29,955 nucleotides of DNA from a virus, in IMG/VR virus record IMGVR_UViG_3300042390_000402, positions 1 through 29,955 of that record, one strand, 5' to 3'. Shown piece by piece: positions 14,033 through 29,955 of the stretch (positions are counted from its first letter, which is position 1; every line of letters starts with the position of its first letter). The position numbers and the translations under genes are program-made. Below the pieces are notes generated by a model. That model had not been told where the DNA came from and did no database searches. It saw only the letters and a program-made list of their open reading frames with translations.

Positions 14033-14797
14033 ATGGCCCAATCCCTCGAAGTAAACATCAAGACGACCTCGGACGTCCCGCAGGCGATGGACAAGGCCAA
14101 GTCGGCTACGGCTAGTTTCGGCAAACAGGTCGAGGACATCCAAAAGAAGTTCAGCACCGCTTTTAAGGACGTTGCCTTGGGTTTCATCGCTCCGATGGTC
14201 ATCGTCCAGCAAGTAATCTCAACAATCTCTTCGCTCATTCAAGAAGCCAAACAGCTCGCTCAAGATGGCATTGGCATCATTTCAAAAGGTGAAAGCCAGT
14301 TCTCCACGATGGAAGAGGCAAAGATGGCTCAGTTCTTCAAGACGAGGGAAGCCCTTGAAAAGGAAGCAGCCGCCGTCGAGGCAGGCCGTCGGAAGATGAC
14401 CTTGGACTTCCTCAACAAGACCGAAGCCGGTCAAGCCCTGTTGAAGCAGGAACGCGCTAAGCTCGGCTTGGAGGATGTCCTTGAGCCTGGAGTGATGGCG
14501 ATGGTGCCTGAGTTCCAGAAGATTGCCTTGGATGCTTTCTTGAACTCGGAAGAAGGGCGTAAGTTTAAGCCAATCTTTGAAGACAAAAAACCAACGCAAG
14601 ACACAGGCTCAATGCTCGGCTCTGGCGTGATCGGCGTCGGCGCATCCCCTCAGATTGCCTTGGCTATGGAAGCCAACACAACCCTCTCAAGCATCGACTC
14701 TAAACTTGGTGAACTGGTCAACGCGGGCATCGACAAGGACCCGACCAAACCACTTAACCGCAAGTACCCACTCTATTCACCCGGCCTCCAACGCTAA
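14033..14797 (+). CDS. Short tape-measure-like tail protein
   Basis: The N-terminus (SLEVNIKTTSDVPQAMDKAK, then SATASFGKQVEDIQKKFSTA) reads like the start of phage tape-measure proteins, and a hydrophobic segment follows at about residues 47-68 (ALGFIAPMVIVQQVISTIS). The middle is helical and charged (about 80-170). A Gly/Ser-rich stretch (MLGSGVIGVGASPQIALAM) and a helix with LSSIDSKLGELVNAG close the protein. At 254 residues it is far shorter than usual tape measures (700-1500+). With the usual ratio of about 0.15 nm per residue it would specify a tail of only about 40 nm. It could instead be a tail-hub or membrane-interacting protein. ATG 14033 follows the upstream stop by one base. Confidence 0.5.
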   Translation: MAQSLEVNIKTTSDVPQAMDKAKSATASFGKQVEDIQKKFSTAFKDVALGFIAPMVIVQQVISTISSLIQEAKQLAQDGIGIISKGESQFSTMEEAKMAQFFKTREALEKEAAAVEAGRRKMTLDFLNKTEAGQALLKQERAKLGLEDVLEPGVMAMVPEFQKIALDAFLNSEEGRKFKPIFEDKKPTQDTGSMLGSGVIGVGASPQIALAMEANTTLSSIDSKLGELVNAGIDKDPTKPLNRKYPLYSPGLQR

Positions 14798-14803
14798 TTT
14801 CCA

Positions 14804-15676
14804 ATGGCACTCGTCAAGAACGGCAACGCACTTTCCACCGCCCTGCAACAGCCAGGAGCGACCGTCTCCAATGACGGCTACGGCCTGCTGACTTCAACGG
14901 TCATCTGGACTGCAGACGAAGACGCAACTCCAATTATGAAGGGGTCTGGCCACCCGGAGTTTTCCTTCATGAAGGCTTGGAAGATTACCCGCGAGTTTAA
15001 GGCCGCCGAGATGATTGGATATAAGGTGGACTATGTCGGCATCTGTTCCGAAATCGCAGAAGGCGAGGCGGGAGCTGGTGATTGGGTGGCGGCCACGAAT
15101 ACGGAAGCCAACATTAGCGGGGCAATCAGCCTCGGCACCGAGCGGATTGAGAGCCACCCCAAGTTCTTTAACGCTGAAGATGCCGAAGGCGAACCAGACC
15201 CCGATGCTATGATCGCCGGCTACGGCACGGGCACGCCGTCCGTCCCTGTCTATCCTGCGTCCACCTTGGTCTCTGGCGAGTACGTCGGTCTTAACGGCGC
15301 CCACTTCAAGAAGATTGGAACTACCTATCAGTTTACGGGCTTCAAGGACCCGAACTCATCCTATCGAGCCTTCTACGGTAAATCCAATTACCTTGCTCCT
15401 ACGACCGGTCTTTCTGGTATTATCTACACGACCTCGACTTCTGTTGTAAATCAGTTCTTGGCTAATGTCGGACGCTCGACATCCGTGCAAGGTTGGGAAT
15501 CTGGTCCAAAGTTAATCCCTGACTTTGTCGGTACTGACTTCGAGGGCGGCTTTGGTGGTCAAGTCCTGCTGGCTGGGGTGAACTTCGAGGAGTACGGCCA
15601 CGTTTATAAATGCTCCTATCAAATCCGAATTAATAAGGAAGGCTGGCCCACCCAAGTCTATCCTCTGTTCGTATGA
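14804..15676 (+). CDS. Distal tail/baseplate protein (290 aa), unknown family
   Basis: No family is recognised. The product is rich in Gly, Thr, Ser and aromatic residues and looks all-beta, with long loops and no signal peptide or coiled coil. The central region contains an acidic loop (NAEDAEGEPDPDAM) and a C-terminal strand block (KCSYQIRINKEGWPTQVYPL). Position after the tape-measure candidate is that of distal tail (Dit) and tip proteins. It ends in an ATGA overlap with a gene of nearly equal length, so the two probably form one substructure. Confidence 0.6.
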   Translation: MALVKNGNALSTALQQPGATVSNDGYGLLTSTVIWTADEDATPIMKGSGHPEFSFMKAWKITREFKAAEMIGYKVDYVGICSEIAEGEAGAGDWVAATNTEANISGAISLGTERIESHPKFFNAEDAEGEPDPDAMIAGYGTGTPSVPVYPASTLVSGEYVGLNGAHFKKIGTTYQFTGFKDPNSSYRAFYGKSNYLAPTTGLSGIIYTTSTSVVNQFLANVGRSTSVQGWESGPKLIPDFVGTDFEGGFGGQVLLAGVNFEEYGHVYKCSYQIRINKEGWPTQVYPLFV

Positions 15677-16548
15677 TGGGCGGCGTACAACCAGGCATCG
15701 GGTATAACGTCACCCAAACGGCTGACGGTTCATCCCTTGAAATCCTCTTCCCTGAGCAGGCCGCCTACGGCCCCGAGCAGTTCAAGGTAGAGATGTATGG
15801 GGACAACGTATGGGTCGCCAAGGGCCGCGTCATCGCGATGCAATCGGTCACGACCTCGCCGATGTATTCGTCCCAACAGGCCTTGACGGAATTCAATGTC
15901 CAAGGCTTCGCCATCTACCCGACCGACTCACGCACCGAGGGGTCCGACATCCCCAATTCCATCTGGGCCTCCGATGGCTATGTGACCATCCAGAAGTATA
16001 CCCCAGGAGAGAGCGAGGGATACCCAGCGACAGGCTCGGACACTTGGGGCGTCTACATCGTGCGCAATCAACTCAGCTCAAGCGGTGGCGACGGCACCCT
16101 CCCGCTGCTTGCCGTCATCGCGGACGGCTCTGATGCGTACACAAAATCGACGGCTTTCCCAACCGACACCGAGGGTCATTATAACTGGGATTGCTACCAA
16201 CAGGTCGCAGCGGTCACGGTCGAAGGGGAAGGTGGCGGGAGCGGCAACCTCATGGTCAGTATGCTCAACTATGCCTTGGGCAACTATGCCGCCGAGCGCA
16301 TCAAGATTGCCTCCATCGTCTACGAAAACGAGAATTGGAAAGTGACCCAGCTCCTGATCGGAACCCTTACCCTTCCCGGTTACATCGGGGGAGGTGAAAT
16401 TCAATGGGTTAGTACCCTGCCGTCCTACCCCTCCGCAACCCTGCCGGGCTTCAAGTCCACGACCGATGCTTGGTTCGGCACTTGGACGGGCTACACCAAA
16501 CTTTTGACCACGGGCAGCGGGTACACGACCAACATCGTGGCGTCCTGA
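15673..16548 (+). CDS. Tail tip/baseplate protein (291 aa), unknown family
   Basis: The 291-residue product begins at an ATGA overlap (ATG 15673) with the preceding tail gene. It looks all-beta and Gly/Tyr/Trp-rich, with segments such as SLEILFPEQAAYGPEQFKVE, SSSGGDGTLPLLAVIADGSD and KVTQLLIGTLTLPGYIGGGE. Nothing resembles the large lambda gpJ-type hub, which this genome lacks. A role in the tail tip, or as an adaptor holding the fibre proteins encoded next, is the best inference. The 37-base gap after it is C-rich and holds nothing I recognise. Confidence 0.6.
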   Translation: MMGGVQPGIGYNVTQTADGSSLEILFPEQAAYGPEQFKVEMYGDNVWVAKGRVIAMQSVTTSPMYSSQQALTEFNVQGFAIYPTDSRTEGSDIPNSIWASDGYVTIQKYTPGESEGYPATGSDTWGVYIVRNQLSSSGGDGTLPLLAVIADGSDAYTKSTAFPTDTEGHYNWDCYQQVAAVTVEGEGGGSGNLMVSMLNYALGNYAAERIKIASIVYENENWKVTQLLIGTLTLPGYIGGGEIQWVSTLPSYPSATLPGFKSTTDAWFGTWTGYTKLLTTGSGYTTNIVAS

Positions 16549-16585: not shown

Positions 16586-16900
16586 ATGACCTGCTCGACC
16601 TCTGTAACCTTCAAGCGCGGCACGACCTTCGCGGCGACTGTCACCTACACCCCCGAGGCCGGCGGCCCTGCTAATCTCCTTAGCACCACGGTCACCTCGT
16701 CCATCATCGACGCCGCCAATCAGGTCTACCCCTGCACGATCACGATGGCGGTGGACGGCCTTTCCTTCGTGGCCTCCTACAGCCCGACCGCCAACTGGTC
16801 GCTGGGCTCGGCCCGCTGGGACATCAAGTTCGCCTACGGCACGACGGTCTTCTACTCGGAGACCATGCGCCTCAACGTCATCGACCAAGTGACGGCCTAA
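16586..16900 (+). CDS. Small beta-sandwich baseplate protein
   Basis: The 104-residue protein is predicted all-beta: TSVTFKRGTTFAATVTYTPE, STTVTSSIIDAANQVYPCTI, then DIKFAYGTTVFYSETMRLNV. This resembles the N-terminal Ig-like domain of upper baseplate proteins (BppU) and of similar small adaptor proteins found just before fibre genes. The last part (YSETMRLNVIDQVTA) ends like those adaptors. It is followed three bases later by the fibre gene, so it probably anchors the fibre to the tail tip. The family match is from general pattern only. Confidence 0.6.
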   Translation: MTCSTSVTFKRGTTFAATVTYTPEAGGPANLLSTTVTSSIIDAANQVYPCTITMAVDGLSFVASYSPTANWSLGSARWDIKFAYGTTVFYSETMRLNVIDQVTA

Positions 16901-18592: not shown

Positions 18593-18771
18593 TGACCACC
18601 CAAGGCACACACCCCTCCGACCGTTTCGTCGGCTATGTCGTCGGCAAGAAGGCTTTCGTCCAGGCCGTCCGCAAGGGCGACCGCTTCATCTACTTCGTCC
18701 CCGTGGACTTCGCCGCGACCCGTGAAGAACTCGTTGCCAAGTATGTGGCCCTCGGGCTGACTGTCGACTAA
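18592..18771 (+). CDS. Small protein between fibre genes (59 aa)
   Basis: ATG 18592 overlaps the fibre stop codon and the stop TAA 18769-18771 overlaps the ATG of the next gene (TAATG), so the frame is locked between two real genes. The product starts MTTQGTHPSDRFVG and contains YVVGKKAFVQAVRKGDRFIY and a C-terminal helix (ATREELVAKYVAL). It has a mixed alpha/beta look and is not hydrophobic. Its position suggests a fibre-assembly chaperone or a small tail adaptor. No family is recognised. Confidence 0.7.
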   Translation: MTTQGTHPSDRFVGYVVGKKAFVQAVRKGDRFIYFVPVDFAATREELVAKYVALGLTVD

Positions 18772-20162
18772 TGGCAATCAACCTCTACAGCAAAGCCTCG
18801 GTCGACTCGCTGCTTTCCCCGAAGCTCTCCATCTCGTCCCTGACCAACGCGGCGGCGACGACCTTGAACGCCACGGCCCCGACGACCGACCAAGTCCTGT
18901 CCTATGACGGCACGGAACTCAAGTGGGCGACTGTCGCTGGGGGCGGCGGCGCTGCATGGGGTGGCATCACGGGCACCCTGAGCTCGCAGACGGACCTTCA
19001 GAACGCCTTGGACCTCAAGGCACCCCTTGCGTCCCCTACCTTCACCGGCACCGTGACCATCCCAGCGGGTGCGTCCATCGATGGTTATCTGACCACCAGC
19101 ACGGCATCATCGACTTATCTCGCCAAGGCCAGCAACCTCTCCGATCTGGCGAACACCGGCACGGCCCGCACGAACCTTGGGCTAGGTGGCTTGGCTGTCC
19201 TCAACGATGCCCCTTCCAACGGCTCGCAGTACGCCCGACAGGACGGCGCGTGGGCTGTCGTGACAGGCGGTGGCGGTGGTGGCGGCGGCGTGGATATCCA
19301 GACCTTCGGCTCGTCCACGACCAGCGGGACTTTCACTTGGACGAAGCCTGCAGGGGCTAAAATGGTTGAGGTGTACCTTATGGGTGGCGGTTCTGGCGGC
19401 GGTTCTGGGGCACGATATGCCACTACTTCTGGAAGGTCTGGTGGTGGTGGTGGTGCTGGTGGTGCAATAATTCAAGCCAGAATTAATGCGGCGTTCCTTG
19501 GTGCCACCCAAGCCGTTGTGGTAGGTGCAGGCGGTGCAGGCGGTGCCTCAAGGACTACTGACAATGGCAACGGATTTAGTGGGTCAGTAGGAGGTGCTAC
19601 AAGTTTTTCTATTTTTCAAACTGGCTCTGTTGGTGGTGCTAGTGGAGGAAACACATCGTCCGGCTCTCAAGCCTTCGCTAATTCAGCGTCTCTATTCGGT
19701 ATTGCTGCAAATAATGTTGGTGCAGGGGCGCAAGGAAGAACTACCTCCGGGGGGTCGGGAAATTCCACTACAGGCACATATGCTTTTGGCTTGGGTGGCG
19801 GTGGTGGTGCTGGAGCAGTAGCATCTTCTGTAGTAGCCAACGGCGGTGGAACTGGTGGTTCGATTGTTGGAAATAGTGGTGCTGGATTAAATGTATCGGT
19901 TGCAGGAGGAACTGGTGGGCAGGGCTTAACTTCCACACCAGCAACCGCAGGGATTTCTGCTGGCACTCAATACTTCATCGGAAGCACAGGGGGCGGCGGT
20001 GGCGGCTACCGAACGGCCACAGGTGGTTCACTCCTTAACGGCGGCAACGGCGGCTGGCCTTCAAGTGGTGGCGGTGGTGGCGGTGCGTCCGACAACGGCT
20101 TTGCAAGCGGTGCTGGCGGTGCTGGCGCCAACGGTTTCGCCGTCATCATTACCTATTGCTAA
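18771..20162 (+). CDS. Glycine-rich tail protein, receptor-binding candidate
   Basis: The 463-residue protein starts with fibre modules (WGGITGTLSSQTDLQNALDL and NDAPSNGSQYARQDGAW) that are paralogous to those of the upstream fibre but in a different order. After a poly-Gly hinge (GGGGGGGGVD) comes FTWTKPAGAKMVEVYLMGGG, the start of a glycine-rich domain common at the C-terminus of phage tail proteins. From there to the end there are about a dozen Gly-rich loops (for example GGSGGGSGAR, GGGGGAGG, STGGGGGGY). Such domains fold into polyglycine-II sandwiches and decide host range in other phages. Bases of about 19360-19990 are clearly poorer in GC than the first third, which points to an acquired domain. 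Confidence 0.85.
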   Translation: MAINLYSKASVDSLLSPKLSISSLTNAAATTLNATAPTTDQVLSYDGTELKWATVAGGGGAAWGGITGTLSSQTDLQNALDLKAPLASPTFTGTVTIPAGASIDGYLTTSTASSTYLAKASNLSDLANTGTARTNLGLGGLAVLNDAPSNGSQYARQDGAWAVVTGGGGGGGGVDIQTFGSSTTSGTFTWTKPAGAKMVEVYLMGGGSGGGSGARYATTSGRSGGGGGAGGAIIQARINAAFLGATQAVVVGAGGAGGASRTTDNGNGFSGSVGGATSFSIFQTGSVGGASGGNTSSGSQAFANSASLFGIAANNVGAGAQGRTTSGGSGNSTTGTYAFGLGGGGGAGAVASSVVANGGGTGGSIVGNSGAGLNVSVAGGTGGQGLTSTPATAGISAGTQYFIGSTGGGGGGYRTATGGSLLNGGNGGWPSSGGGGGGASDNGFASGAGGAGANGFAVIITYC

Positions 20163-29275: not shown

Positions 29276-29625
29276 GCGAGCATACATTTGAGGACATCTA
29301 TAAGTCCGTTCAAAACCTTGAGGCTGGAAGTTTTGTGACCTTCAACGGTTTCCCAATGGTTGTAGAAACTCAAACAACTACATACAATCGCTACTATGGT
29401 GAGTTGCGATGGGTGAACCAGTTGGACGGCAAGTTGCAAATAGATGTAACGGTTCGTGTTGGCATCAATCTTGACTCTGAAGTGACACGCCTCAAGGCAG
29501 AGATTGAGTGCTTAAAGGATGAGGTCGGACTAATGAACCAACTTTGGGAAAAACATCTCACTCCCAAAATCAGAAAGGCTATGGTTGAAGCCTGCAAAAA
29601 GCAGACCAAACACTTTAACCAATGA
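29272..29625 (+). CDS. AT-richer small protein with coiled coil (117 aa)
   Basis: ATG 29272 overlaps the kinase stop. The first half (SEHTFEDIYKSVQNLEAGSF, VTFNGFPMVVETQTTTYNRY, LQIDVTVRVGINLD) looks beta-rich. The second half is a coiled coil with SEVTRLKAEIECLKDEV, a relative of the ENARLKAEVERL unit, and a basic tail. The DNA is markedly poorer in GC than the kinase gene (23 of 60 bases at 29341-29400 versus 39 of 60 at 29101-29160). It looks like a recently acquired cassette in the early operon. Function unknown. Confidence 0.65.
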   Translation: MSEHTFEDIYKSVQNLEAGSFVTFNGFPMVVETQTTTYNRYYGELRWVNQLDGKLQIDVTVRVGINLDSEVTRLKAEIECLKDEVGLMNQLWEKHLTPKIRKAMVEACKKQTKHFNQ

Positions 29626-29906
29626 GCAAGAAGCCCACCAAGCAGGAACGCATCGAGGAGCTGGAACGGCAACTCGCTCAGGTCAACGCCCTCAACAAGC
29701 AACTCGCCGACGTCCTGAAGATGACCGAGGACGGTCAATGGGTCGTCATCTCCGAGAAGGACTTGAACCGCTACCGCAACGGCATCGATGTCCTCATCAA
29801 GGCCGGCGACGCCCTCGACGAACACCTGGGCGAGTTCGACCCGACCGAGGCAGGCTTCGAGGTTCGGCAACTGTGGGCGAAGGCCAAGGCTTCGGATAAC
29901 TTCTGA
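29622..29906 (+). CDS. Coiled-coil small protein (copy B, complete)
   Basis: ATG 29622 overlaps the previous stop as ATGA. The 94-residue product starts SKKPTKQERIEELERQLAQV, a leucine-heptad coiled coil (also NALNKQLADVLK), followed by MTEDGQWVVISEKDLNRYRN and a helix IDVLIKAGDALDEHLG with an acidic patch, ending FEVRQLWAKAKASDNF. It is the complete version of the partial gene at the left end. The C-terminal 127 bases of the shared stretch are identical, while the rest differs at 19 sites yet keeps the frame intact, so both versions are under selection. Function unknown. Confidence 0.75.
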   Translation: MSKKPTKQERIEELERQLAQVNALNKQLADVLKMTEDGQWVVISEKDLNRYRNGIDVLIKAGDALDEHLGEFDPTEAGFEVRQLWAKAKASDNF

Positions 29907-29955
29907 CATGAACGACATGGACAAATCTGCACCCATGATGTGCGTCTTCATGCTC
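29633..29955. repeat. Right copy of imperfect terminal direct repeat
   Basis: This is the partner of 1-323. It is gap-free, with 19 substitutions within its first 196 bases and 127 identical bases at its end (29829-29955). It marks the joining point of a 29,632-bp circle or concatemer unit. Confidence 0.95.
29908..29955 (+). CDS. Micro membrane protein, 3' partial (same gene as 276)
   Basis: The frame starting at ATG 29908 is identical to the first 16 codons of the gene at 276-407 and runs off the end of the window inside the hydrophobic segment (SAPMMCVFML). On a closed molecule it is the same gene. Confidence 0.6.
   Translation, partial: MNDMDKSAPMMCVFML

Follow-up and report, generated by a model that had tools for sequence, protein, structure and literature searches.

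The window analysed here is the whole of virus record IMGVR_UViG_3300042390_000402, 29,955 bases in length, and its tail genes run from a candidate tail terminator to a pair of tail fibres (Table 1). A sequence-only reading of this DNA had placed just three proteins, of 254, 290 and 291 residues, between a tail-chaperone candidate and the fibre genes. All three open reading frames are present between the TAC candidate and the block formed by g104 and the fibres, and they are genuine genes, since the same order (g125, MTP, TAC, TMP, P290, P291, g104, fibres) is kept in about 100 viral contigs and in three MAG contigs.

Table 1. Tail genes of the window with the basis for each assignment.
Feature	Coordinates	Strand	Basis
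g125, candidate tail terminator/completion protein, 142 aa	12588..13016	+	position; kept in relatives
Major tail (tube) protein (MTP) candidate, 128 aa	13041..13427	+	position
Tail assembly chaperone (TAC) candidate, 189 aa	13462..14031	+	directly upstream of tape measure
Short tape measure protein (TMP), 254 aa	14033..14797	+	C-terminal homology to L013 slot protein
P290 (290 aa), putative tip adaptor with a tube fold, of mini-hub or Dit class	14804..15676	+	model and VIA-align
P291, putative baseplate receptor-binding-type protein, 291 aa	15673..16548	+	model, VIA rows, hypervariability
g104, 104-aa beta protein, possible fibre adaptor	16586..16900	+	precedes fibres, conserved
Tail fibre 1, 562 aa	16904..18592	+	phrog_25379 tail protein, E 9e-14
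Tail fibre 2, 463 aa, glycine-rich C-terminus	18771..20162	+	phrog_25379, E 2e-12; Pfam Gly_rich_2, E 3e-10

The genes that flank the three proteins were characterized by profile comparison. The g125 family was the only one in the window with a profile link to the siphovirus P8625 (gp15; hhalign E 5e-4). The MTP candidate showed a mean column identity of 65% over 26 relatives, and in two relatives it matched phrog_1407 'major tail protein' with E down to 0.004. The TAC candidate matched no family, and g104, with a mean column identity of 78% over 25 relatives, gave weak Pfam matches only. Profile searches with the 254-aa protein, P290 and P291 returned zero matches in PHROGs, and in Pfam the one match, to P290, was below threshold and due to chance; the P290 and P291 profiles had no match among PDB sequences, nor had the TMP alignment profile, and single relatives of P290 or P291 matched unnamed PHROGs only. 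The earlier statement that no described family fits these proteins therefore holds at the level of PHROGs and Pfam, but not for the plan of the tail, for which P8625 and RcGTA provide precedents.

Searching viral contigs with P290 and with the capsid protein yielded 14, 38 and 80 loci, partly overlapping between scans, with 327 matching stretches in all in the last scan. P290 identity among the relatives sharing the module ranged from 25% to 89%. A tblastn search of 50,697 phage records with P290 found no match, and MCP had the same outcome. In the genome collection, three contigs carried P290 relatives, all of them in Opitutae/Verrucomicrobiota MAGs. These module-bearing contigs (L055, L056 and L057) could serve for host assignment, with moderate weight because they resemble phage contigs that were binned with the MAGs. 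Among isolates, the P8625 portal was the most informative relative (22%, E 1e-10), and the host class of P8625, Opitutae, agrees with the assignment from the MAGs. Overall, this is a freshwater phage, probably with a host in the Verrucomicrobia (Opitutae). A sister clade (L024, L026, L030, L036 and L049) has rulers of 421–428 aa and a 252-aa P290 without the central insertion, and carries one or two additional proteins ahead of g104.

We then compared the proteins in the slot between orthologous TAC and P290, which were 248–438 aa long (median 265) at 102 loci; the window tape measure is less than one third as long as that of lambda. Its last 59 residues were 69% identical (E 8e-21) to the 360-aa slot protein of locus L013, and this longer homologue matched the tape measures of phrog_8462, phrog_9483 and phrog_8125. 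Matches to PHROGs tape-measure families were obtained for 7 of 32 aligned slot proteins, with single relatives down to E 2e-15. The window protein also carries a hydrophobic stretch at residues 47–65 (mean hydropathy 1.9). The C-terminal 59 residues shared with the tape-measure-family protein of L013 identify the 254-aa product as a genuine tape measure, and the candidate put forward by the sequence-only reading is thus assigned, by homology, to the tape-measure lineage. Profile searching, which that reading had proposed as a check, placed longer slot proteins in tape-measure families.

The two ends of the ruler tracked different neighbours. Across 101 loci, C-terminal similarity of TMP followed that of P290 (rank correlation 0.58; partial correlation 0.47 given TAC; 0 of 300 permutations), whereas N-terminal similarity followed TAC (rank correlation 0.78, partial 0.72). 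This pattern would fit a ruler whose C-terminus docks on P290; in RcGTA, likewise, the TMP C-termini face the tip (PMC7296036). Adjacent genes are expected to behave in this way in any case, and we treat the co-variation as supporting only. As to length, P8625 has a 521-aa ruler and a 71–75 nm tail, or 0.14 nm per residue (PMC4642752). On this scale, the window ruler would span about 35–37 nm, and 38 nm at 0.15 nm per residue. RcGTA manages with a ruler of about 216 residues, and its tail is 49 nm long with five tube discs (PMC7296036). A siphovirus tail with a ruler segment of 35–38 nm is most likely. The proposal of a very short siphovirus tail, with a short tape measure and no gpJ, is supported.

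To the right of the ruler lies P290. Its AlphaFold2 model, built with 35 relatives, was all-beta (pLDDT 84, pTM 0.63). In VIA-align, the best 21 rows were all phage-tail, tail-like-particle or T6SS chains, namely tail-tube, initiator, T6SS or VgrG-hub chains with Z of 4.9–7.1, and the first unrelated chain appeared in row 22. Residues 97–284 aligned with the tube/initiator chain 9b45_S (Z 7.1, rmsd 3.5, 85 aligned) and with other chains of this kind (8eon_A, Z 6.8; 7yfz_a, 6.7; lambda gpV, 5.0), and residues 11–79 aligned with VgrG (4mtk, Z 6.3, rmsd 2.6, 68 aligned; 2p5z, Z 5.8). Every Z was below 8, a range that a common arrangement can reach, so the fold match is suggestive; it points to P290 as a tube-fold tip protein of the Dit/hub class, and a Dit-like fold was among the outcomes that the sequence-only reading had named as support for its idea. 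Foldseek found no significant match in the PDB, mostly Ig-like noise, and on BFVD all strong links led to unnamed proteins from uncultured phages. One BFVD entry, A0A0E3M0K0 (334 aa, rank 12, E 4e-6), equals P8625 gp20 in length and carries no weight here. An hhalign test of the two halves of P290 detected no internal repeat, and the P290 profile did not match those of MTP, g125 or P291.

The P291 model was of middling confidence (pLDDT 71), and only 19 of 998 chains reached a VIA-align Z of 2 or above. The first eight rows comprised the phi812 baseplate (Z 5.2), the 1358 RBP (4.8 over 114 residues, a weak match), TssK (3.5–4.2) and the HFTV1 baseplate (4.0). The shoulder domain of the p2 and 1358 RBPs is common to TssK (PMC7291167), and the P291 model bears a weak resemblance to this shoulder and to TssK (Z 3.5–5.2). 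P291 is a hypervariable cassette between conserved flanks. In L003 and L004, its identity to the window was 43–48% while TAC and g104 were at about 86–93%; for L004 the values were 94% for TMP, 79% for P290, 43% for P291 and 93% for g104. In L022, TMP, P290 and P291 were all replaced (46%, 37% and 28%, respectively), while TAC (90%) and g104 (97%) stayed. At three further loci (L007:3452-5761, L011:3136-4968 and L059:4349-5370), an in-frame TAA closes the P291 frame after 113 aa, and a long in-frame ORF (> 490–650 aa) with several P291-like and fibre-like repeats follows immediately. These long ORFs would be an alternative, much larger receptor-binding module.

Two readings of P290 were weighed against these data. 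It is plausible, if short of probable, that P290 forms a hexameric Dit-like ring, its single tube-fold domain being supplemented by another domain at the N-terminus and by an insertion gripping the P291 trimers; such a tip would have no hub, and the TMP would plug the tube. Consistent with this, residues 97–284 match tube/initiator folds with an insertion of about 70 residues left unaligned, the insertion is missing in L024-type relatives, and in p2 and 1358 it is a Dit extension that holds the RBP shoulder domains (PMC7291167), the 1358 shoulder being the one that P291 resembles. The match of the N-terminal part of P290 to hub chains of VgrG (Z 6.3, Z 5.8) argues against a Dit-like ring, as it suggests two barrels per chain, the hallmark of a hub; no named Dit chain stood out among the VIA rows, although absence from them is not evidence. 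Two tube-like barrels in one chain let gp27/Tal trimers meet the sixfold tube (PMC7291167). We also raise, tentatively, the possibility that P290 is smaller than any other known gp27-type hub, with both tube-type barrels within 250–290 residues. The whole siphovirus tip, including tube start, symmetry change and the mount for the receptor-binding protein, would then be made from two proteins of fewer than 300 residues in widespread freshwater Opitutae phages.

We consider it likely that these genes make up the entire distal tail module of a small siphovirus, one whose tip is pared down to a small tube-fold adaptor and receptor-binding proteins. Gene content, ruler lineage, conservation and the lack of a large tip gene are shown; we infer the folds of P290 and P291 (from models), the stoichiometry and the tail length. 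In the assembly that we propose, chaperone-bound trimers of the 254-aa TMP would dock by their C-terminal 60 residues onto a P290 ring. P290 would cap the tube and start polymerisation, one 290-aa chain doing the job of Dit and/or a gp27-like hub. MTP would polymerise over the ruler until the ruler ends, giving a tube of about 6–9 rings (35–38 nm at 0.14–0.15 nm per residue), and g125 would cap the finished tube. P291 trimers and fibres would attach to P290 or g104, with P291 exchangeable for host range, and g104 and the two fibres would complete the adhesion device. The suggestion of a tail built on a different plan found no support, as the tip looks like reduced known parts (a tube-fold adaptor and an RBP of the p2/1358/TssK type) and has precedents in P8625 and RcGTA.

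A podovirus or another non-siphovirus short tail, in which the three proteins would be tail needle, adaptor and spike, is disfavoured, and we regard it as very unlikely. Small proteins without family matches would suit such a tail, and the short tape measure of RcGTA resembles the P22 needle (PMC7296036). However, the longer proteins in the TMP slot are tape measures, a tube-protein candidate and a chaperone precede the three proteins, and lambda-type terminase and portal go together with a siphovirus in P8625, the tail of which was measured at 71–75 nm.

The completeness of the record bears on the lack of a large tip gene. Its ends (1–323 and 29633–29955) repeat each other with 94.1% identity over 323 bp; the record is therefore essentially closed, with a phage genome of about 29.6 kb, and the contig probably represents a closed map put together from two slightly different strains. 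The genes at 2–274 and 29622–29906 are near-copies at the two record ends. The head genes are of the lambda type (gpA terminase, lambda-family portal and S49 protease), and the longest products of the window are, at 597 aa, the gpA-type terminase, followed by a fibre (562 aa) and the lambda-family portal (518 aa). The relative G006, closed at 27,669 bp by a perfect end repeat of 127 bp, has no ORF > 597 aa, and six other relatives of 26–30 kb had no intact ORF > 637 aa, where the ORFs of long relatives were read in two pieces split near base 15000 and an ORF spanning base 15000 may appear shortened. No gpJ- or megatron-type protein of about 1000 aa or more was thus found in the window (largest 597 aa) or in the seven relatives (≤ 637 aa), and because the record is near-closed, the earlier claim that nothing like gpJ exists in the window extends to the whole genome. 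That a large tip protein exists outside the record or was split by an assembly error is largely refuted and extremely unlikely: the window is a metagenome contig with non-identical ends, but the map is closed by end overlap, the perfectly closed G006 (27.7 kb) and the six long relatives agree, and the largest ORF of P8625 is 644 aa.

We next compared the module with known systems. P8625 (NC_029047; L054 12530-15561), a siphovirus of Puniceicoccales IMCC8625, shares the lambda-type portal, the gpA terminase and the Opitutae host with the window. Its tail genes follow the same order, with TMP, then 334-aa and 145-aa proteins, then fibres, and it too is without a gpJ-size protein; no remark on this was seen in the parts of its description that were consulted (PMC4642752). 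It differs in the longer TMP and tail given above, and profile comparison detected no sequence similarity between its TMP and tip proteins and TMP, P290 and P291 of the window. RcGTA has a short ruler (about 216 residues) and a 296-aa hub, similarly small to the parts found here (PMC7296036), but possesses separate Dit, hub and peptidase proteins and a 1304-aa megatron, a size that no protein in the window genome reaches. In the p2 and 1358 baseplates (Dit-Tal-RBP), the RBP shoulder resembles the P291 model; p2 uses Dit, a 398-aa Tal and the RBP, whereas the window phage has one putative tube-fold protein and P291. Lambda shares the type of head genes with the window, and its tail tip (gpM, gpL, gpI and gpJ) differs in having the gpJ-size host-specificity protein that is lacking here. 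A literature search on the shortest siphovirus tail found nothing usable.

These results indicate that a well conserved minimal siphovirus tail is real. What is surprising is how little tip protein it contains, and that a single 290-aa chain may replace both Dit and hub. Public viral contigs contain hundreds of relatives of this group, for whose proteins PHROGs and Pfam have no annotation. With its natural series of 248–438 aa rulers in otherwise matching genomes, the group would allow the ruler rule to be tested close to the lower limit. If our reading is right, ruler, tube-fold adaptor and receptor-binding protein, together with fibres, would be a near-minimum parts list of a long-tail tip, and these phages would show, as a natural experiment, which parts of the tip can be dispensed with, besides being a small and favourable target for cryo-EM.
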